A stretch of 64,000 nucleotides of DNA from Aceticella autotrophica (GTDB taxonomy: Bacteria; Bacillota; Thermoanaerobacteria; Thermoanaerobacterales; Thermoanaerobacteraceae), in the NCBI RefSeq assembly GCF_017357865.1, contig NZ_CP060096.1, positions 1,661,001 through 1,725,000 on the forward strand. Direction: 5' to 3'. Positions 969 through 61,975 of the stretch are shown in pieces (positions within the stretch are counted from its first letter, which is position 1; each line of letters begins with the position of its first letter). The notes beneath the pieces are model-generated. The model saw only the letters and a list, made by a program, of their open reading frames with translations, had not been told where the DNA came from and ran no database searches. The position numbers and the translations under genes are program-made.

Positions 969-1023
969 AAAACAGAAATCTCCCTCATATACCGTTCCCT
1001 CCCCTCCGAAGGCCAGTTTAGCA

Positions 1024-1180
1024 TTCAGGCAGGTCTCCTGGCTCTGATATCATCCTACTCCCGTTCCTTCCCGGTTTCCCAGTGGAATTAATACGGTTTC
1101 GTCCTTCATTACAGTAGCAGGGGCTGCAGCGGATTTTCACCGCTTTCCCTATTAAGCTTAAAAAGCACCTGATGCTCTTG
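1024..1180 (-). promoter_or_regulatory. cobalamin riboswitch
   Basis: Read on the minus strand, the conserved blocks occur in order: AGGTGC near the 5' end, GGGAAAGCGGTGAAAATCCG, the CTGCAGCCCCTGCTACTGT core, CCACTGGGAA, and the closing B12-box GAGCCAGGAGACCTGCC. This is the established AdoCbl-type aptamer. It sits upstream of the BtuF-like lipoprotein and would switch it off when cobalamin is plentiful. Confidence 0.93.
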
Positions 1181-1204
1181 TTATTTAATTTTGCCTTTAA
1201 TTAA

Positions 1205-1268: not shown

Positions 1269-3140
1269 TTAATACAGTATCCTTATATCGCCAACTTTCT
1301 TTGTAAGTTTTATAGAATCAAAGTATTCAAGAATACTTACAGCATATTTCCGGCTTGTTTTTAATAAATCTCTATATATTGCAAGCGTTATCTCTTTATT
1401 TTCTTTAAGATAATTTGTCAAAATATCTTTTGCCTTTAAGAAATTATTTTCAGTTAAAAATATTTCTTCATTTATTTTAATAAGTCTACCTTCATTTATC
1501 AAATACTCAAATACAGCAGCAACCTTTTTATAATCCGGAAATTCTGTTGGTTTTGGTACATTATATCCTGCATTTTCATATACCTTCATAATTTCATTTT
1601 TAATAGTTTCCTGTTCAGGTGTTAGAACTATATTATAACCCCATAAGGAAACAAATTGTCCTCTGATTTTTATAATTTTTTCTTCTACCATTAATTCTAC
1701 AATAAATTCGTTTAAACTGCTTTTAAAATCTTTAAAAATCTTTGATTTAAATTCCTCTTTTGGCATGCCTTCTCTTAGAGGATTATTTTTATGGTACTGT
1801 GTTAAAATATTTTTTGCATTTTTACATATTTTATCAAAAGTTTCCTTATGATATAAATATCTAATGCCATTTTTATTAAGTTTAATAATTGACATATTAG
1901 CATTTATAATTTTCTCAAGATTTGAAATCCCGGCCATTCTTTCAATTTCACTAAAAGCGACAGGTAAAATAGAATTAGAAATTTTCTTTTCTATTAAAAA
2001 ATTCATACCAAATTTTTCAATTTTTTTTAATTCCTCTATAACATCATTTTTAAATCTTTTGTGTTTTAACGGGTTTGAAACAAGAATTATTCCACCACCT
2101 ATTGTTATCATTGGTGAATATGTTCTTATTACAAAATAATCTCCATTTAAAACTGAAACATAATTTTCAAGCAAAATCTGCGCATACGCATTTTCTCCGG
2201 CTTTTAATTCACTTTTATCAAGAAGAATAATCCTTCCAATTGTTTCGGAAGCACCTGTATAAAACCTTATTCTGTCCCGATTTTCTAATGTTTTAGAAGA
2301 TTTTAATAGTGATAACCTAACATCGATTATATTTGATGGTTCAATTGCGCCGGGCGGTGCAATAACATCGCCACGTTTTAATTTATCGGTATTAATATTT
2401 GCAAGATTTATGGCGGTTCTTTGCCCTGCATAGGCTTCCTTAACATCCTTATCATGTACCTGTAAATTTCTAACCCTGCTTTCAAGCATATCAGGATAAA
2501 CCATAACCTTATCGCCGATTTTAATCATGCCTGAAACTAATGTACCCGTTACAACAGTTCCAAAACCTGCTACAGAAAAAATTCTATCAATTGGGAGTCT
2601 ATATATGCCCTCCCCTATTTCTTTTTTAAAATTTTGAGCCTTTTCATCAATTAGTTTAATTAATTGGTTTATTCCTTCTCCTGTCACAGATGATACTACT
2701 GCTACCGGAGCATCCTTTAAAAAAGTATTAGAAAGCCCCTTTTTAATATCATCTTTCATCATATTTAACCATTCATCATCTACCATATCACACTTTGTTA
2801 TAACAACTATTCCGTTTTTTATTCCTAAAAATGATAATATATCTATATGCTCTTTTGTTTGAGGCATTATACCTTCATCTGCCGCAATGACAAGCAGTAC
2901 AATATCTATTCCATAAGCACCTGCAAGCATGTTTTTTATGAATTTTTCATGACCGGGAACATCAATTATTCCGGCTCTTATTCCAGAAGGAAGGTCAAAA
3001 TATGTAAATCCCAAATCGATTGTCATTCCTCTCTGTTTCTCTTCCTGCAACCTATCAGTATCCCGCCCTGTTAATGCTTTTATTAAAGCTGTTTTACCAT
3101 GGTCAACATGCCCTGCAGTACCAATAATTATGTTTTTCAA
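1269..3140 (-). CDS. selB: selenocysteine-specific translation elongation factor SelB
   Basis: SelB brings Sec-tRNA to the ribosome at UGA codons marked by a SECIS hairpin. The 623-residue protein opens with the GTPase P-loop [19 protein letters not shown], then switch [15 protein letters not shown] and the NKxD-type motif TKCD. EF-Tu-like beta barrels follow ([17 protein letters not shown]). The C-terminal ~250 residues have the winged-helix character that binds SECIS RNA ([12 protein letters not shown] and later repeats). The start is TTG at 3140, with GGAGGG six bases before it inside the end of selA, so translation is probably coupled. It is the last gene of selD-selA-selB. Two UGA-containing genes in this window (selD, fdhF) are its evident clients. 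Confidence 0.95.
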
Positions 3141-3142
3141 TG

Positions 3143-4522
3143 TTAACCCTCCGTTATTTTTTTAACTGATTTGAATATGATATCATAATCATCCTCTAAT
3201 AGAGTCCGTACATCAAGGATTACTGCATCAGAAACGATTCTGCATATTATTGGTATATCCCCTGTTCTAAATTTATTTTCAATATCATTTGAACTTAAAT
3301 TATCTATTTCAATTTTTATACCATATGAAGGAATATCCTGTTCAGCCAGTGCACCTCCACCTGCCATTGAAGATATCTCAATTATATCAGTTTTAACTTT
3401 GTTTATATTAGACAGAATATCTTTAAGTTTAACCGCCCTTTCGTATAAAATATCCTTATTTAGTGTTAACATCTTCAATGTAGGTATAATCTTCTCAGGC
3501 TCATTATATAAATATATTCTCAGTATATATTCTAATGTGGAAAGACACATCTTGTCGACCCTTACTGCTCTTGTCAAAGGATGTTTTTTCATCAAATCAA
3601 TAAAAGATTTTTTTCCTACTATTATACCTGCCTGCGGACCACCTAAAAGCTTATCTCCGCTAAATGTAACTATATCCATACCTGCTTTAACAACTTCCTG
3701 CACTGTTGGTTCATATGGCAACCCATATTTGCGTAAATCAACTAATACACCGCTCCCCAAATCCTCCATAATCGGTATGTTATACTTTTCAGATATCTCT
3801 ACCAATTTTTCTGTAGAAACCTCTTCCGTAAAACCTATTAACCTGAAATTGCTGGTATGAACCTTTAATATAAGACCGGTATTCTCATTAATAGCATTTG
3901 TATAATCATAATCATGTGTCTTATTTGTCGTACCGACCTCTTTTAATATTGCTCCGCTTTGCAACATAACATCAGGAATTCTGAAAGAACCGCCTATCTC
4001 AACAAGCTGACCTCTTGAGACGATAACCTCTTTTCCTTTCGACATTACTGAAAGAGAAAGAAGAACTGCTGCAGCATTGTTGTTAACAACAAGTGCAGCC
4101 TCCGCCCCCGTAACCTCACATAAAAGCTTCTCAACAAGGGAATATCTTGAACCTCTTTTCCCATTTTCAATGTTATATTCAAGTGTAGAATAATGTGCTG
4201 TTACTTCCCATAAATTTTTTATTAATTCATCAGGAAAGATAGACCTTCCGAGATTTGTATGGATAACAACACCCGTTGCATTTATAACCCTTTTTAAATT
4301 GCAATGAGTATTTTTTGATAAATATTCCAAGATTCGCTTGACTATTTCCTGCTTATTTATTGTTACCTCAATATTATGAGATATTTTATCTCTATAATCA
4401 CTTAAAACTTGTCTGATTATTTTTACAACATAATCATGCTTATAGTTTTCAAGAAGTTTAATTATATCATTTTCTCTCAAAATTTCATCAACCGAAGGCA
4501 GTTTCTTAAATAAATTGTTCAA
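3143..4522 (-). CDS. selA: L-seryl-tRNA(Sec) selenium transferase SelA
   Basis: SelA is a PLP enzyme that converts Ser-tRNA(Sec) to Sec-tRNA(Sec) using selenophosphate made by SelD. Its 459 residues match the usual bacterial length. Family motifs are visible: [16 protein letters not shown] near residue 85, a glycine-rich PLP region, and [16 protein letters not shown], which carries the PLP lysine. The start is TTG at 4522 behind AAGGAGG. It is 28 bases downstream of selD and 2 bases upstream of selB, forming one operon. The tRNA(Sec) gene (selC) was not found in this window and must lie elsewhere. Confidence 0.95.
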
Positions 4523-4550: not shown

Positions 4551-5585
4551 CTATTTTACATATATATCATATTTTCCTTTTTCAACAACCTCTCCAACTA
4601 TTTTGCATCCAAATTTTAACCTTTTATTAAGCCTTTCATAAAGTTGCTGTGCCTTATTTTTATCTACTGATATCAAAAGACCTCCTGAAGTTTGCGGGTC
4701 AAATAGCAAATCCGATATGGCATCATCAGCATTTTTTATAAAAAACTTATTTTTAAGATAATTTTTATTTCTATAAGCACCTGCCGGTATAAGCCCCATA
4801 GCTGCAATTTCCTTAGCTCCTTCTATAATAGGTATTGCATCAATATTAAATACGATACTTACATTTGAACCATGTGCCATTTCATAAGAATGTCCCATAA
4901 GTCCAAAACCTGTAATATCTGTGCAGGAATTAACGCCTACATCAACCATAATCTCTGCTGCATCCTTATTTAAATACTTCATTACCTCAACAGTGTATGA
5001 AAAAACATCTTCTGGGCACATTTCTCCTTTAAATGCTGTATTTACAACACCACATCCAATAGGTTTAGTTAATATAAGTATATCTCCCGGTTTAGCATTG
5101 CTATTTTTAATTACCTTGTCAGGATGTACAATTCCTGTTACACAAAGCCCATATTTAGGTTCTTTATCCTCAACCGAATGACCGCCTGCTATAAAAGCAC
5201 CTGCTTCTTTTACCTTATCATTTCCACCCCTTATAATATCTTTTAATATATCAAGATATTCTACCGGAAAACATACAATATTTAAAGCAAATACAGGTTT
5301 GCCCCCCATAGCATATACATCGCTTAATGCATTTGCAGCAGCTATCTGCCCAAAATCATATGGGTCATCTACAATCGGTGTGAAAAAATCTACTGTTTCA
5401 ATCACAGCTTTATCCTCAGTAACCTTATAAGCAACCGCGTCATCATTTGTATCAAGACCTACTAATAAATTTTTATCATGCGGGATATCTATATGACACA
5501 GAACCTGTGCCAAAGCCTCAGGGCCTATTTTTGCCGCTCACCCTGAACTGCATGACATCTGTGTCAGTCTTACTCTTTCTATCAT
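4551..5585 (-). CDS. selD: selenide, water dikinase SelD, itself a selenoprotein (UGA = Sec at codon 16)
   Basis: SelD makes selenophosphate from selenide and ATP. A conventional ORF would begin only at residue ~25, losing the catalytic segment. Reading back to ATG 5585, which has GGTGAG before it, adds MIERVRLTQMSCSSG-(UGA)-AAKIGPEAL. The UGA at 5540-5538 falls exactly where the family has its catalytic Cys or Sec, and the following Lys is the catalytic lysine. Read through, the protein has 344 residues, the normal SelD length. Downstream motifs fit SelD: GLDTNDDAVAYK, DFFTPIVDDPYDFG, CTDITGFGLMGH and DPQTSGGLL. A hairpin with a GGTTC loop follows the UGA. It is first in selD-selA-selB. Confidence 0.93.
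5495..5511 (-). promoter_or_regulatory. candidate SECIS hairpin of selD
   Basis: The stem GGCACA/TGTGTC (5511-5506 with 5500-5495, one G.T pair) has a five-base loop GGTTC and begins about 27 bases after the UGA. Bacterial SECIS elements sit just downstream of the UGA inside the coding region and carry G-U at the loop tip. The fdhF hairpin in this window has the similar loop GGTCT. Confidence 0.65.
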
Positions 5586-5595
5586 ATCCTCACCT

Positions 5596-6234
5596 TCAAT
5601 CCACAGTAATTTTATCTTTAATCTGTTCAAAGAGCTTTTGTCCAATCCTTGGTACATTCATTATATCATCAATCTTCTGGAATTTTCCATGCTGTTCTCT
5701 AAAATCTATTATCTTCTGTGCTGTAACCGCACCAATCCCTGGTAATGAATCAAGTTGTTCTTTTGATGCGGTATTTATATTAATTTTACCATTATTACCT
5801 GCAATATTTACTGATGAATTACCTGTGTTTGAGCTCTGATTCCCTGGATTTTCACCTATTTTTGTTACTTTTATCATTTGCTCATCCTTTACTTTTTCAG
5901 CAAGATTCATATTTGAAAGGTCTGCACCTTCTATAACTCCACCAGCCAATTTGATCGCATCATCAATTCTGTCTCCTTCTCTCATTATATACACTCCGGG
6001 AGATTTTACAAGACCTGTGATGTAAACCTTTAATTCTTTTTTTGAATCAAAATTTTTTATCGTTTCATTATTCCCCTTGGAGTTATTTGACACACTACTT
6101 TTAGCCGTAGCCGTTTGTACTTTAATATCCTGCTGATTTTTACTCCTTTCAACTATAAAATATCCTGAAATACATAACGCAATACATATTAAAATAATCA
6201 CAGCATATTGCTGCTTTTTAGAAAAATTAAACAT
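5596..6234 (-). CDS. comEA: ComEA-like competence DNA-binding protein (TM + SLBB + helix-hairpin-helix)
   Basis: This 212-residue protein has one N-terminal membrane anchor (residues ~10-28) and a low-complexity Ser/Asn linker. A SLBB domain follows (VYITGLVKSPGVYIMREGDRI, residues ~70-120), then a second linker and a C-terminal double helix-hairpin-helix (NINTASKEQLDSLPGIG, then DDIMNVPRIGQ). This is the classical ComEA architecture: a membrane-anchored, outward-facing receptor that binds double-stranded DNA during natural transformation. No comEC or comEB lies next to it; the gene ends only 10 bases before the selD start, probably by chance clustering. Its own transcription may drive the sel operon downstream. 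Confidence 0.9.
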   Translation of the reverse strand: MFNFSKKQQYAVIILICIALCISGYFIVERSKNQQDIKVQTATAKSSVSNNSKGNNETIKNFDSKKELKVYITGLVKSPGVYIMREGDRIDDAIKLAGGVIEGADLSNMNLAEKVKDEQMIKVTKIGENPGNQSSNTGNSSVNIAGNNGKININTASKEQLDSLPGIGAVTAQKIIDFREQHGKFQKIDDIMNVPRIGQKLFEQIKDKITVD

Positions 6235-10280: not shown

Positions 10281-11612
10281 TTATACAGCTTTAACAAGAC
10301 TAATTAATGAAGACAGGGTCTGCCGGCTTCTTGCTGCAATATCAGGAACTTTTGCCTGATATTGCAACCTCTTCTTTTCAGAAAGAGGGTTTAAGATTTC
10401 TCTTATAAAATATCTTGCGCCTATATTATATGATGCGTTTAAATCTGCATGATATTTCTTGCCTGTGGAAAATTCGCATAAATCCTTTTTGCTCAACCTT
10501 GTTACCTTTCCTGTACCATCATAGGCATATGCTGATGTGTTCTTTGGATTAACCCATGATAAATGTATCCCGTAACTGTGTGCCATATCGTGAACCTTGT
10601 TCTGTATTTTTTGCTTTGCCCAATATTGAAGCTTTATCCTCATTTTTCGTGCATAATTGCCTTTTAGTTTTAATTTTCCAAGGTACTCAAATACTATAAC
10701 ATCAGCATTATAATCTACAGCAAATTTGATTATTTGATGCACCGTATCATTAATGATTTGTTTGCTTAGATTGTTTATCTTTCTCCACAGGTTAGGTTTT
10801 CTTCCGATACCCGATATTCTTTGCGCTTTTGCTAATTTGTTGATCTCATGAAGCAAACGGTCTTTTTCTATAGGCTGGTTTATGAATAACCTTCCTATGA
10901 CAGTTCCATCATGCTTCATTGCACTGCATACAGCAGAATTGGTCAAACCTAAATCAACGGATATTATTGTTCTGTCTTTAAGCGGTGTCTTGTTTAATTT
11001 AACTGTCTTTTTGTATGTGAAATGAAGATAATATTTTTTCCCGCTTTTTACTAACATCGGATTCATTTCTTTGAAATTCGCCATATCCCTATGCTCAAGA
11101 TTTTTCGTCTTAAACTCTATGTCATGCCATACCCAGTCATTGTTTTTATACACTTTGATTTTTGCTGTGTTGTTTCCTGTGCGCTCAAACACATTATCTT
11201 TGTAGAATACCGGATATGAATATCTTTCCATTCCTAATACAGGCGGTTTTTCTTTTAATACCTTGTTTTTCGCTTCATATTGCACTTTTTTATCAAGATA
11301 ATTTTTTAAATTTGAATAATAGCTCTTTACAGCGCCAAGGGCTTCAGCAGCTGCTGCTCTTCTTAAATATGAAGGAAATTTGTAAAATCTATCGTCAAAG
11401 TCATATTTTGCCTTGTTTTTCTTTGTATTGTGTATTAATTTTTCCATATAGTTTAATTGTTTTTTTACTGTTGACAGTGTTGATACGGTATCCCATTCAT
11501 TGTCAACTGCATTAATTATGTATGATAATGCTTTATTGTATATTGATATGGTATCACTGAAAGATTTATCCGCTGTTTTGATTTTAAACTTAACTGTTTT
11601 AATACATTCCAT
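10281..11612 (-). CDS. tnpB: TnpB family RNA-guided nuclease (IS605 OrfB), zinc ribbon degenerate
   Basis: TnpB proteins are RNA-guided DNA nucleases of IS200/IS605 elements and ancestors of Cas12. In this 443-residue protein the three RuvC acidic residues are present: Asp220 in ISVDLGLTNSAV, Glu309 in VIVFEYLG and Asp390 in HADLNASYNIG. An N-terminal helix-turn-helix/wedge region precedes them. The zinc ribbon expected between the second and third RuvC motifs (two CxxC pairs) is missing: residues 355-389 contain only one cysteine (Cys379) and a YDGTGKVTRLSKKD stretch. The gene is otherwise full length. A guide RNA would come from its 3' end and the hairpin beyond. Nuclease activity is inferred only. 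Confidence 0.9.
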   Translation of the reverse strand: MECIKTVKFKIKTADKSFSDTISIYNKALSYIINAVDNEWDTVSTLSTVKKQLNYMEKLIHNTKKNKAKYDFDDRFYKFPSYLRRAAAAEALGAVKSYYSNLKNYLDKKVQYEAKNKVLKEKPPVLGMERYSYPVFYKDNVFERTGNNTAKIKVYKNNDWVWHDIEFKTKNLEHRDMANFKEMNPMLVKSGKKYYLHFTYKKTVKLNKTPLKDRTIISVDLGLTNSAVCSAMKHDGTVIGRLFINQPIEKDRLLHEINKLAKAQRISGIGRKPNLWRKINNLSKQIINDTVHQIIKFAVDYNADVIVFEYLGKLKLKGNYARKMRIKLQYWAKQKIQNKVHDMAHSYGIHLSWVNPKNTSAYAYDGTGKVTRLSKKDLCEFSTGKKYHADLNASYNIGARYFIREILNPLSEKKRLQYQAKVPDIAARSRQTLSSLISLVKAV

Positions 11613-37590: not shown

Positions 37591-37602
37591 CATAAAAAAT
37601 CT

Positions 37603-37688
37603 ATGGCTCCCTACGATAGTACTAACTATATCAGGTTTTATGGGTTAAGAGCCTGAGCCCTTTCTCAGCCTTTCGGCACCCCAGCCTC
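37603..37688 (-). promoter_or_regulatory. TPP riboswitch (THI element)
   Basis: The minus strand reads GGGGTGCC, GGCTGAGA, then ACCTGATATAGTTAGTACTA and CGTAGGGA, which are the conserved THI-box blocks in correct order. It controls thiSGHEF and possibly the radical SAM gene at the end. Confidence 0.95.
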
Positions 37689-37823
37689 AATATTCAATTT
37701 TTTAAATGCTGTAGCTTAACATATGGTAAAAACTTTCATCGACCTTTGCCTTTATAATATTATATTACTTCTTCCATTAGAAATCAACATAAATTCTTTA
37801 TTTTGAATTACGTTTGGTTATAC

Positions 37824-41114: not shown

Positions 41115-41161
41115 ATTTAAGGCGAAAATTAATCAATTATAGTCATAATTAAAAATTTAAA

Positions 41162-41275
41162 ATCTCCGAGTCCTTATTTCTAAAGTAAGTTATATCTTGC
41201 TATGAAATAAGAACCGATAGGGTATTAATGGAAACGTTAATGCCTCCTGTTTGGAAAGGAGAAAGGACTAACTAA
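41162..41275 (+). promoter_or_regulatory. Moco-type riboswitch
   Basis: The leader opens with CTCCGAGTCC and closes with GGACTAAC (5-bp AGTCC/GGACT closing stem, 41169-41173 with 41265-41269). Inside are an 8-bp stem CTTATTTC/GAAATAAG, a 7-bp ATTAATG-gaaa-CGTTAAT hairpin, and the conserved core GCCTCC...GGAAAGGAG. These features match the molybdenum/tungsten cofactor RNA motif. It precedes the modABC operon, so cofactor supply would control molybdate uptake. Whether it senses Moco or the tungsten form was not resolved. Confidence 0.85.
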
Positions 41276-41330
41276 TAGAAGATGAAAATGCTTTGATTTG
41301 GTATTTTTACCTTTTATTTAGTAGTGGCTT

Positions 41331-50100: not shown

Positions 50101-51315
50101 TTAATTAAATATAAATCTTCCTTCAAGCATTTCCCCCTTTTTTACAATATTCTTTTCTTCCGGCATTATTATAATCCCATTGGCTCTTGTCATTGTTTTT
50201 AATTGACTTGAACTTTGACTACCCGCATTGTAAGCATAATATTTATCTGATTTTTTTTCTATTTTAACATATATATATTTTCTTCTTTCTGTTTTTGCTT
50301 TAATATCCTCTCCTAAAACAATAGAAATTTTTTTTGGAAGAACATCTACCTCTCCCTTCATTTTCTTCAGTGCTGGTTTTACAAATTCTTCAAATGTTGT
50401 TATAATTGATGCAGGATTTCCAGGTAAACCAAAAAATAATTTATCTTCATAAGTAGCAAAAGTTATAGGCTTACCTGGTTTAATTGAAACAGATGTAAAA
50501 TGTATTTTAAATCCTATTTTATTTAAAATTTCATCAATAAAATCATAATCTCCTACTGAAACACCACCAGAACTTATTAATACGTCAACCTCAGCCAAGG
50601 CTTCTTTTATTTTCTGAATTATTACCTCTTTATCATCAGGAATAATTCCAAATGATAATACAGATTTGATTCCGATACTTTCTAATAAGGCTTTCAAGGA
50701 ATATTCATTACTGTTTCTTATTTTACCGGGTTGTAATTTTTTATCTATATTTATTAATTCATTTCCTGTTATTATTAAAGCTACCTTCGGCAAATTATAT
50801 ACAGGTATATATTCTTGACCTAAAGAAGCCAAAAAACCTATTTCTGGCGGTCGAATAATTTTACCCTTAGGTAAAGCTAATTCTCCGAAGGAAACCTCCT
50901 CTCCCTTATTAATAATATTATTGTTGCTTTTAACCGGTCTATTTATTATGATTTTCTTATCTTTAATATCTACCTTCTCTATTTCTATAACTGCGTCTGC
51001 ACCTAAAGGAATAGGTGCTCCAGTCATAACTTTGTATGTTTGACCTGTTTCTATTTCCTTTTTAAAATCATCACCAGCTTTAATACTTCCCCTGACAGTT
51101 AATTCAATTGGATTTTCTTTAGAAGCATTCAAGGTATCAGAACTTTTTAATGCATAACCATCCATTGCCGATTTATCAAAAGGAGGTAAATAATCATAAG
51201 CATAAATATCTTCTGCCAAAACCCTTCCTAAAGAAGATAACAAATCTATTCTTTCAATACCTAAAACATTTGTTGAGATTAAGATGGTTTTTAGTGCTGA
51301 TTCAATGCTCAACAT
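50101..51315 (-). CDS. moeA: molybdopterin molybdenumtransferase MoeA
   Basis: MoeA inserts molybdate into adenylylated molybdopterin. The 404-residue protein shows LPPFDKSAMDGYALK, MTGAPIPLGADAVI, PPEIGFLASLG, ISSGGVSVGDYDF, VSIKPGKPITFA and FFGLPGNPASI, all conserved family blocks. ATG 51315 overlaps the fdhF stop (TAATG), so it was translated in step with fdhF. The IS element inside fdhF lies upstream and should be polar on this gene unless the element supplies a promoter. Confidence 0.95.
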   Translation of the reverse strand: MLSIESALKTILISTNVLGIERIDLLSSLGRVLAEDIYAYDYLPPFDKSAMDGYALKSSDTLNASKENPIELTVRGSIKAGDDFKKEIETGQTYKVMTGAPIPLGADAVIEIEKVDIKDKKIIINRPVKSNNNIINKGEEVSFGELALPKGKIIRPPEIGFLASLGQEYIPVYNLPKVALIITGNELINIDKKLQPGKIRNSNEYSLKALLESIGIKSVLSFGIIPDDKEVIIQKIKEALAEVDVLISSGGVSVGDYDFIDEILNKIGFKIHFTSVSIKPGKPITFATYEDKLFFGLPGNPASIITTFEEFVKPALKKMKGEVDVLPKKISIVLGEDIKAKTERRKYIYVKIEKKSDKYYAYNAGSQSSSQLKTMTRANGIIIMPEEKNIVKKGEMLEGRFIFN

Positions 51316-52834
51316 TATTCTTTCACCTTAATCAACATCTGTTTTTTAATTCTTTCATATTCATCTTTTATATATTGTTCTGCCCATATCTGATCATCAA
51401 TTTTTTCTACCTTGACTGCACAATATTTATATTCAGGGGTTTTTGATATAGGGTCAAGATTATCCAATGTTAATTCATTTGCAGCACCAATCCACCACTG
51501 ATAAGTCATATATGTTGCACCTTTTTGCACTCTATCAGTAACTAAAGCCCTTGCTATTACTGAACCTCGACGAGAACTTATCCTAACTAATTCCTGATCC
51601 TTTATCCCTAATTCTTTTGCATCTTCTATATTTATTTGCAGATACCCTGGTTCATCAGCTAATTTCTGTAAAGGACGGCAGTTGCCTGTCATCGTTCTTA
51701 CCGAATAGTGTCCAACTTCTCTCACGGTAGACAAACTTAAAGGATATTCGTCATCGGGCAATTCAACAGGTGGTCGCCATTCAGCAGCAAACAACAAACC
51801 TTTGCCATTTGGTCTTGCAAATTTGTTTCCTTTATACAAATATGGTGTACCTGGATGATCCTCGCTCGGACAAGGCCATTGAATACTACCTAATTCTTTA
51901 ATACGCTTATAACTTGCACCAGCAAAATTAGGACACAAACTTCTCATTTCATCCCATATTTCCTCGGTATTTTTATAACTCATGGGGTATCCCATAGCAG
52001 TGGCAATTTCGCAGATAATCTGCCAGTCCGGCTTTACATCACCTTTAGGTTCAACTGCTTTACGCATTAGTTGAAAGCCACGATCAGCACAAGTGTAAAC
52101 TCCATCATGTTCACCCCAAGCAGTCGCAGGCAAAATTACATCAGCATGCAAAGCAGTTTTATTCATAAAAATATCTTGGACAACAACAAATTCCATTTTG
52201 TCTAACGTTTCTCTTACTTCAGCAGCATTGGGATCACTTTGAACTGGATCTTCTCCAAAAATATAATAAGCTTTAATTTTATCTTCATGTAATACTAAAT
52301 GAGGCACTTCTGTCAGCATATAACCGGGTTTAGAAGAAAGTTTTACTCCCCATGCTTTTTCAAACTTTGCTTGAATTTCAGGATTATTTACTGGCTGATA
52401 TCCGGGATACAAATTGGGCAAAGCTCCCATATCGCAAGCTCCCTGTACATTGTTTTGACCACGAACAGGACCAATTCCTACATTTGGTCTTCCATAATTG
52501 CCTGTTAAAAGTCCTAATCCTGCTAATCCCTTAACAACATCAACTGCCTGACCGAATTGACAAACACCCATTCCATAAAGAATATACGAATCCTTCGCTT
52601 CTGCATACATTCTTATGGCTTTGCGAATTGTATCTGCAGGAATTCCAGTAATAGACTCGGCATATTCAGGTGTATATCTATCAACAATTGCTTTATATTC
52701 TTCAAAACCTTCTACATATTTGTCAACATATTCTTTATTATAAAGACCCTCATTGATCAATACATTACCAAATGAATTTACTAAAACCATATTTGTTCCG
52801 CCTTTAATTGGCAGCCATAGATCAGCTATTCTAG

Positions 52835-54744
52835 GAGTCCACTCGGAAAGAGCTTATCTACAGGTTAAAAATTTTTATCATCACAAAAATTATCAGAATA
52901 ATCTCTATTTAACTAAATATATATGACTTTGTTATTGATTTTAATATGTATGTTCTGCTTTATTGATCTGTTATTGCTATTTTTAATCTCATTAACCATT
53001 CTTTAAGCCGTTTTTGGGCAGACTTCTCCCTTCTTAATTTGTCTATTACAAATTTTAGAAATATGTTTCATTATTACTTTGATATTATTGTTTATTGCTA
53101 CCATTATCATTTGCCATCTTATTTTTAATTTCCCTCTATACCTTCCTTTACGTCCGCCATGCCTGGTAAGTTCTGATATGTTTCTTTCTACATTCGGTCT
53201 TTTTGCATAGTCTTCTTTAAATTCATCTGTTTTTTGATATTCTCTTTGTTCTTGTATCTCTTTTTCATATGGATGTATATTTATTGTTCTCCCTTTTTTT
53301 GATTTTGTACATTGGTCTTTTAGCGGACAATCATTACATTCTTCTGCTCTAAATTTTACTGTAACTTGCTCATGTTTTTGCGTTTTTTCAGTATCAAATT
53401 GTTTTATGTGTCCGTTGGGACATTCTACTGTTCCTTTTTCTAAATCAATTTTGAATTCTTCTTTTGAAAATCCTCCACTTGGATTTGTTGCTTCCGGTAC
53501 TCTAATGCAAAAATCTGTTCCTTCTTCTTTCCTTTTTTCTATTTCTTCAAAGTCACTATATGCACAATCTCCATACAGTTTATCTATATCAACGCCGTTT
53601 CTTCGGCTTTGTTCTATAAGATCACTCATATGTTCACCATCTGCTATATTTGCTCCATCGACTTCTATTCCTACTACTACTGAGCCTTTTTCTCCTCCTG
53701 TTATAATTTCAGCTTTGTATCCATCTGATAATTTCGATGAGGTCTTTCTCCCATGGCGCATTTCGTCATCTACTACTGATATTATTCTGTCTTTCGCTGT
53801 TCCTTCTATCATTTTTACATGCCCATCGTTTGTTATTTCAACATCTTGTAATGCTACTCTTTCTAATAATTCAATTGCTTTTTTTAAATCATCTTTTATA
53901 TCTTTTTTTGTTTTTATATTTTCTACGAGTGATAGTGCATCTTTAACAAGTTCTTCGAGTAATTTTGCTTTTTCTTTTTCATTTTCCCATGCTATTTTGG
54001 GTTTTTTGATATTTTCTTCATAATCTGTTCTTTTCAGTATTTTTTTTGATGCATCTTCCATTTCGTAAAACTTCATGAAACGGAGAACCATCTTTATCCC
54101 TTGGTATATCATAGTGTAAGTATCTTGTCTGGCACAAGAGCCCCAAATCATGAATGAATCTATTATATGTAAGTTGTCTTTATTAAACAGTCCTACTTCT
54201 TTTGCCTGACTAATTGTTTTAATAAATATTTCTTTTCCTATTTCACTGTTAAACAGTCTTTTTCTATGATCACATAATGTTACTGCATCTATTCCATCAA
54301 AATCCCGTGGTGCGGTTAATGCATATTTAATTCTATCATCGAATCGTGATTCTTCTTCCATTTCACGATCAGAATATCCTTTTTCAAATTGTATCAGCAT
54401 CGCTGTAAATGTATATACTGGGGATATGGATTCTCTGCCATAGTATGAGAAAAGTGGCTGAAACATTTCTTCATTAAGATTATTAAATACCCATGTTCTT
54501 AGTCTATGATAATAACTTACTTCAGAAATTTTCCCAAGTAACCAATAATCTGAAAATGACATTTGTCTATCTGCTTTTCCTATCATTTTTATCACCACAT
54601 TTTTTTTTATATTATTTATATTATACCATAAAAAATACCTCTTAAGTGCTTATTTCGTGTGTGTTTAGGAGTATTTTTTTTGTAAATTATATGGCTTTCA
54701 ATAACATATTTGTTAATTTATGATTGATGATTCCGAGTGGACTC
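52835..54744 (-). mobile_element. IS1182-like insertion sequence inside fdhF
   Basis: The 1910-bp element is bounded by perfect 14-bp terminal inverted repeats (GAGTCCACTCGGAA at 52835-52848 and its complement at 54731-54744). A direct CTAG duplication flanks it at 52831-52834 and 54745-54748. It carries one transposase gene. The intact repeats and target duplication, and the undamaged fdhF halves, indicate a recent insertion. Confidence 0.95.
53003..54586 (-). CDS. IS1182-family DDE transposase
   Basis: The 527-residue transposase has an N-terminal DUF772-like domain (YTFTAMLIQFEKGYSDREMEEESRFD). The DDE core follows: first Asp in LHIIDSFMIWGS, second in DKLYGDCAYSDFEEI, Glu in RPNVERNISELTRHGGRKGRYRG. 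A Cys-rich insert (CNDCPLKDQC) is usual in IS1182 members. I chose ATG 54586 (MIGKADRQMSF) with GGTGAT before it; a GTG four codons upstream is possible. The frame is complete, so the element should be active. Confidence 0.93.
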   Translation of the reverse strand: MIGKADRQMSFSDYWLLGKISEVSYYHRLRTWVFNNLNEEMFQPLFSYYGRESISPVYTFTAMLIQFEKGYSDREMEEESRFDDRIKYALTAPRDFDGIDAVTLCDHRKRLFNSEIGKEIFIKTISQAKEVGLFNKDNLHIIDSFMIWGSCARQDTYTMIYQGIKMVLRFMKFYEMEDASKKILKRTDYEENIKKPKIAWENEKEKAKLLEELVKDALSLVENIKTKKDIKDDLKKAIELLERVALQDVEITNDGHVKMIEGTAKDRIISVVDDEMRHGRKTSSKLSDGYKAEIITGGEKGSVVVGIEVDGANIADGEHMSDLIEQSRRNGVDIDKLYGDCAYSDFEEIEKRKEEGTDFCIRVPEATNPSGGFSKEEFKIDLEKGTVECPNGHIKQFDTEKTQKHEQVTVKFRAEECNDCPLKDQCTKSKKGRTINIHPYEKEIQEQREYQKTDEFKEDYAKRPNVERNISELTRHGGRKGRYRGKLKIRWQMIMVAINNNIKVIMKHISKICNRQIKKGEVCPKTA

Positions 54745-54924
54745 CTAGCAGATTCTGTTATCCTTGGATCAACAACAATAATTTTAGCTCCTTTTTCTTT
54801 TGCTTTCACTATTCTCCTTGCTACTATCGGATGAGAATCTGCTCCATTGTATCCAAAAATAAATAATAAATTAGCATCTTCTATCTCATTAATTGAGTTA
54901 GTCATTGCACCATTTCCTAATGTT

Positions 54925-54941
54925 GCGGCTAGACCAGCCAC
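54925..54941 (-). promoter_or_regulatory. candidate SECIS hairpin of fdhF
   Basis: GTGGCT-GGTCT-AGCCGC (54941-54925, one T.G pair) starts 13 bases after the UGA. The loop GGTCT is the same as in the E. coli fdhF SECIS, the best-known bacterial example. Confidence 0.8.
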
Positions 54942-55498
54942 TGATGGAGCATGTCAAACCCGAGCACAGTGATCAATATTATTAGTACCGATTACAGCTC
55001 GCATAAATTTTTGCATTATATAATTTGCCTCATTTCCTGGACCGCGAGCTGATCCAGTACCCATAATAGCATCAGGACCATATTTATTTTTTATTTCTTT
55101 AAGCTTATTAGCAACATAACCAATTGCTTCTTTCCAAGAAACTTCAACTAACTTACCATTCTTTCTAATCATAGGTTTCTTTAAACGGGCAGTTAATAAT
55201 TGTGGGTCATTAAGGTAATCCCAACCATAGCGACCTTTTAAGCATAATGTTCCCTCGTTTGTTCTGCCAAAAGCTCCTTCAGCTCTTATTATTTTACCAT
55301 CTTCAACTACAAGATATAATTGACACCCTGCACCACAGTATGGGCATACAGTTAAAACCTTTTTTTCCATAGCTTTTTCCTCCTTTTTAACATTATAATA
55401 ATTAGATAACCTTTACTCCACAAAACTATTATAACACCAAATATTTATAAATTTCAATTTTAATTTACATGTTATATTAAATAATTATTATAACCCTT

Positions 55499-61799: not shown

Positions 61800-61975
61800 C
61801 TATTTTATATTTGATGGTATCTCAACGTGGAACCATACTAAAATTTTTTTAATTTAATACAGTATTACTCTGCCAGGATCATTTGACCGGGACGGAAGAT
61901 AAAAAGCTTACTTCACCTTCTGATTTCCCGGAAGGTTTTTTAATTATCTTCCTAAATCTAATAAGGGGGCTGATG
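61800..61975 (+). promoter_or_regulatory. structured leader of the pan operon with terminator
   Basis: The 200-base gap before the DUF2520 gene has a small hairpin (ATGGT/ACCAT, 61815-61838), a GC-richer segment (CTGCCAGGATCATTTGACCGGGACGGAAG) and an intrinsic terminator at 61914-61943. No ORF is visible. The layout is that of a riboswitch-like attenuator. The described pan RNA motif of panBCD operons is a candidate, but I could not match its consensus with certainty. Confidence 0.5.
61914..61943 (+). terminator. intrinsic terminator in the pan leader
   Basis: ACCTTC (61916-61921) with GAAGGT (61932-61937) is followed by a T-run and TTAATT, 35 bases before the first pan gene. Confidence 0.75.

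Follow-up and report, generated by a model that had tools for sequence, protein, structure and literature searches.

The selenide water dikinase SelD is listed among the two most widespread bacterial selenoproteins by Zhang et al. (2006; PMC1794560). In Clostridium difficile, SelD is given as an established selenoprotein (PMC10484987; table in PMC1794560) with selenocysteine (Sec) encoded by UGA, and selD is the first gene of a selD-selA-selB locus (PMC5677094). According to the latter report, insertion into the C. difficile selD gene abolished 75Se labelling, and growth of the selD deletion mutant was restored to the wild-type level by a plasmid carrying selD alone with 500 bp of upstream DNA. 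The three 75Se bands described in this 2017 work were assigned to GrdB, PrdB and GrdA, and a labelled SelD is not among them. The hairpins that direct Sec insertion in bacteria (bSECIS) were reported for Sec-containing SelD genes by Mariotti et al. (2015; PMC4561486). The constraints given for such elements are a 3–9 nt loop, a 4–16 bp stem, a G in the first two loop positions, a distance of 16–37 nt from the UGA and a minimum free energy of –7.5 kcal/mol or below (PMC13188914).

The locus described here is part of a 64 000-nt stretch of the Aceticella autotrophica genome (the window; Table 1). Its SelD is very probably a selenoprotein, judging from the gene and its relatives, and we are close to certain that it is an ordinary bacterial Sec-containing SelD, made from ATG 5585 with UGA as Sec16. 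This is the long-known usual form in bacteria of this kind; the reading is correct and ordinary. selD is again the first gene of selD-selA-selB, with all three genes on the same strand. No substantive difference from the C. difficile system was found in the sources cited above; in A. autotrophica, the tRNA-Sec gene is located about 100 kb from selD.

Table 1. Features of the selD locus and of the rest of the window (window coordinates).
Feature	Position	Strand	Description or basis
selD (selenide water dikinase)	4551..5585	–	344 aa, single in-frame TGA; frame and profile match
TGA codon 16, inferred Sec	5538..5540	–	On the catalytic Cys of other SelDs; alignment
Ribosome-binding sequence ahead of ATG 5585	5588..5596	–	AAGGTGAGG; direct reading
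Proximal stem	5513..5526	–	5 bp, loop CUGA, –4.8 kcal/mol
Distal hairpin, probable bSECIS	5494..5512	–	8 bp, loop GUU (GGUUC with the last pair opened), UGA–loop gap 33 nt
selA, L-seryl-tRNA(Sec) selenium transferase	3143..4522	–	TIGR00474, 619.2 bits
selB, Sec-specific elongation factor	1269..3140	–	TIGR00475, 373.2 bits
Cobalamin riboswitch just past selB	1011..1187	–	Above gathering score
TPP riboswitch	37591..37693	–	Above gathering score
Moco riboswitch	41152..41276	+	Above gathering score
fdhA-type formate dehydrogenase gene, broken; second selenoprotein gene of the window	51315..55370	–	Sec TGA 54956–54954, DHCARV-U-HAPSVAGLAATLGNGAMTN
Insertion sequence splitting fdhA	52835..54744		14-bp perfect inverted ends, flanking CTAG duplication
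DDE transposase within the insertion sequence	53003..54598		PF13751
pan motif	61811..61899	+	Above gathering score

The frame running from 5585 to 4551 contains 344 sense positions, and its sole interruption is the TGA at 5540–5538. When this TGA was read as a residue, the profile search returned a full-length SelD (TIGR00476, 395.8 bits for a cut-off of 125; NF002098, 345.9 for a cut-off of 299), so that the curated family cut-offs for SelD were passed. Residue 16 aligned with the conserved Cys of two SelD chains of solved structure (3u0o_A and 2yye_A). Frame and alignment, both established directly, bear out the initial annotation, which had placed the UGA at the catalytic position within SCSSG-U-AAKIGPEAL. 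The ATG and good ribosome site that it had put upstream of the UGA were found as well (AAGGTGAGG at 5596–5588), and the stop codon of a comEA-like gene lies 10 nt before this ATG.

It had also been stated that a standard gene call would start past the catalytic segment. This is true of the mechanical ORF call, which chose TTG 5513 and gave a 320-aa protein starting downstream of the UGA. If this start were the real one, the product would be a SelD-like protein without the catalytic segment and the UGA would be a true stop of a short upstream frame. We consider this extremely improbable: the segment preceding the UGA is conserved as protein in relatives and has its own ribosome-binding sequence, the shortened product would leave the only SelD of the genome with neither the catalytic position nor the following Lys, and the TGA is exchanged with Cys but never with TAA or TAG in relatives (see below). 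In the 11 codons preceding the UGA, mean entropy was 1.21, 0.91 and 1.77 bits at codon positions 1, 2 and 3, respectively (98 distinct sequences). Such variation, weighted towards the third position, is the pattern of a coding sequence. The consequence is mainly one of annotation: selD is to be called from ATG 5585 across the UGA.

Relatives were searched in two samples. Among 61 genomes (A. autotrophica and 60 others), a strong SelD match (E < 1e-90) was obtained in 24, with 28 matches in total, and 26 of these carried exactly one TGA. One exception is a SelD (G037:C150; loci L024/L149) split by a 36-residue insertion that separates the catalytic loop from the core, with its TGA in a second piece. 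The other comes from a genome with three SelDs (G039, contigs C10, C7 and C13; loci L030 and L147), two with TGA and one, on C13, with TGC. In a phylum sample of 398 genomes, SelD was found at E ≤ 1e-60 in 259, and 148 of the best 150 matches listed carried exactly one TGA. The remaining two of these 150 were a full-length SelD without a stop (G383, TGT) and one matched from residue 35 only (G328). The latter genome belongs to the same genus as G037 and may have the same insertion.

The catalytic codon was then scored in 141 loci (L009–L149, pooled as 30 + 27 + 80 + 4, duplicates included). TGA occurred at 105 of them and a Cys codon at 29 (TGC in 16, TGT in 13); TAA and TAG occurred at none, and seven loci were left unscored because of low similarity. 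This comparison with Sec or Cys orthologues had been named as a check in the initial annotation, and it came out in favour of Sec: bacterial selenoproteins are recognized by an in-frame UGA that homologues replace with Cys. A rapid SelD tree with 126 rows, from which the N-terminal part was left out, requires at least four changes between Sec and Cys; its support is uneven, with 49 of 123 inner branches starred and two long branches joined. A sequencing error or a decaying gene would also give an interrupted frame, and selD is indeed decayed in one relative (G014). The probability of this is practically negligible here, as the single interruption falls precisely where relatives share a TGA, and selD, selA and selB are otherwise intact.

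A hairpin with a GGTTC loop had been proposed to follow the UGA. It is present at 5512–5494, and no equally good fold was obtained in 200 dinucleotide shuffles. All the constraints given above for bSECIS agree with it: loop size (3 nt, GUU), a G as the first loop position, stem (8 bp), spacing (33 nt) and stability (–8.7 kcal/mol). Relative to the consensus (PMC13188914), its spacing is close to the upper limit, and a weaker stem separates it from the UGA. We regard it as a probable bSECIS. Taken alone, it carries modest weight: 129 of 1000 synonymous variants of this sequence also pass the bSECIS rule, and the 49-nt context including the UGA has an unexceptional fold (z = –0.99); folding energy against synonymous variants gave z = –2.06. 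The nearer stem at 5526–5513 was absent from the initial annotation. It is too weak for a bSECIS here, but many relatives have their qualifying hairpin at this site.

Comparison across loci provides a stronger test than this single genome. Loci were thinned to less than 85% identity, leaving 73 with TGA and 23 with Cys. A qualifying hairpin was found in 44 of the 73 TGA loci, against a mean of 7.7 in synonymous variants (sd 2.5, range 4–13, 40 draws); control windows from these genes qualified in 60 of 730 cases. The other 29 TGA loci failed the published rule. The Cys loci belong to the E. coli type (here from Bacillales and Blautia), sharing the family and the catalytic position with Sec-SelD and differing by the Cys codon; five of the 23 qualified, against 1.7 expected (sd 1.2, range 0–5) and six of 230 control windows. 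Two fixed helices were also counted, the proximal stem in both registers because a register shifted by one suits the relatives better than that of the window. One or both stems could be formed in 58 of the 73 TGA loci, against 37.8 in synonymous shuffles (sd 3.2, maximum 50), and in none of the 23 Cys loci, against 2.3 (maximum 7). Folding energy relative to synonymous variants gave a mean z of –1.17 after TGA (n = 73) and –0.40 after Cys (n = 23; one-sided rank test, p = 0.003), the z-values from shuffles being upper limits since relatedness among the sequences persists through shuffling. The excess of hairpins, observed directly, is strong behind TGA and weak behind Cys. Three results carry the reading beyond chance: the frame goes on past the UGA to yield a complete SelD, exactly one TGA is present in 148 of the best 150 matches listed, and the hairpin excess is larger after TGA than after Cys.

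In the 44 TGA loci that passed the rule, the loop of the best qualifying hairpin started 16–17 nt after the UGA in 19 and 30–32 nt after it in 25. At least six changes between the near and the far site were counted among 57 rows of the SelD tree; under the strict rule, five rows had both hairpins and 37 had neither, and its –7.5 threshold may discard genuine stems. One possible reading, which we hold tentatively and at somewhat less than even weight, is that the Sec hairpin of selD has two alternative sites between which lineages switch. SelB would tolerate a shift of about 15 nt, the intervening stem would perhaps act as a stacked spacer, and the tandem state would bridge moves within a constrained coding sequence. 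Both sites lie within the published 16–37 nt, so this would refine the known element without adding a new one. No report of a two-position selD hairpin was found in the parts of the literature searched, which included PMC1088965 and PMC13188914; PMC5029168 and PMC8538045 contributed nothing decisive. The selD genes with a near, far or doubled hairpin form a natural series for asking how far SelB reaches, a modest extra to the main result.

The genome was searched as one contig of 2 267 618 bases. It contains selA, selB, selC and selD, all found directly, with a single SelD and one above-cut-off match to tRNA-Sec (75.8 bits, cut-off 47; C1:1563200–1563291). The claim that SelD is a selenoprotein is supported by four lines: the UGA aligns with the catalytic Cys, the Sec-decoding machinery is complete, TGA and Cys are exchanged in relatives, and the comparison of loci gives a hairpin signal. 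It could still be argued that near-cognate tRNAs mostly insert Cys or Trp at the UGA, with Sec insertion so rare that SelD is no selenoprotein in practice. Cys functions at this position in 29 of the 141 loci, such reading would account for the start-up of Sec-SelD in a cell devoid of SelD, and the three C. difficile 75Se bands described were all assigned to other proteins (PMC5677094). We nevertheless judge it very improbable, given the full Sec machinery of the genome and a Sec-directing hairpin retained far more after TGA than after Cys.

For the preferred Sec-containing SelD, knowledge of the families suggests the following course for Sec insertion, catalysis and start-up. Translation would start at ATG 5585, and the hairpin beyond the UGA would position SelB with Sec-tRNA-Sec to decode UGA 5540–5538 as Sec. 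The 344-aa SelD would convert selenide and ATP to selenophosphate, with Sec16 replacing the catalytic Cys. SelA, encoded by the next gene, would use selenophosphate to form Sec-tRNA-Sec, which SelB would deliver for the synthesis of FdhA and of SelD itself. The loop would be passed on as working enzyme and would probably start from trace readthrough.

The initial annotation had described a self-feeding loop in which SelD needs its own product to be made. This is formally correct, as the genome has no other SelD, but the idea is not new, a self-supporting SelD having been printed in 2006 (PMC1794560), and the dependence is not strict, given the C. difficile complementation. We reject a strictly self-locked loop in view of the rescue of growth with selD alone as reported in PMC5677094. 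If the C. difficile SelD depends on Sec, then the loop began there from zero SelD, and low-level decoding of the UGA by near-cognate tRNAs would be the simplest source of start-up. The complementation touches the chicken-and-egg question directly and suggests a loop that may start itself, although the assignment of all three 75Se bands of that work to GrdB, PrdB and GrdA speaks against a firm conclusion.

The six-frame scan of the window for TGA-interrupted frames gave 24 candidates, among which only selD (5540) and fdhA (54956) were recognized by eye. The transposase of the insertion in fdhA had 17 matches in the genome; the insertion is probably recent, because 13 of these are full-length, stop-free copies with 99–100% identity. 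The broken fdhA had raised the idea that SelD is the sole selenoprotein and the machinery serves only itself. This was rejected in view of an intact molybdopterin oxidoreductase gene (C1:2194753–2196027), whose single TGA lies within DHCARL-U-HSATVAGLA, which we take to be an FdhA-like Sec motif. A third molybdopterin protein, without internal stop, was found at C1:110612 in the PF00384 search. No match to GrdB (PF07355) was obtained in the genome; its absence is likely, the same family being matched in five of nine genomes searched (no control was positive in the first search). SelU (TIGR03167) had no match in the genome either, with seven of 14 controls positive, one of them above the cut-off.

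In the family survey, 16 genomes were searched for both SelD and tRNA-Sec: four had a full-length SelD with tRNA-Sec, one a decayed selD with tRNA-Sec, and 11 neither. In the decayed case (G014; L146, G014:C1:1674500–1680500), selD is cut to residues 1–54 and runs into a fragmentary selB, selA is gone, and the tRNA-Sec is retained at C1:1676571–1676661. Here, deletion has removed the Sec system and left the tRNA-Sec as an orphan. Elsewhere in the window (10281–11612, minus strand), a TnpB-like protein of 443 aa with a Cas12f1-like TNB domain is encoded (PF07282, 26.9 bits, cut-off 26.3).
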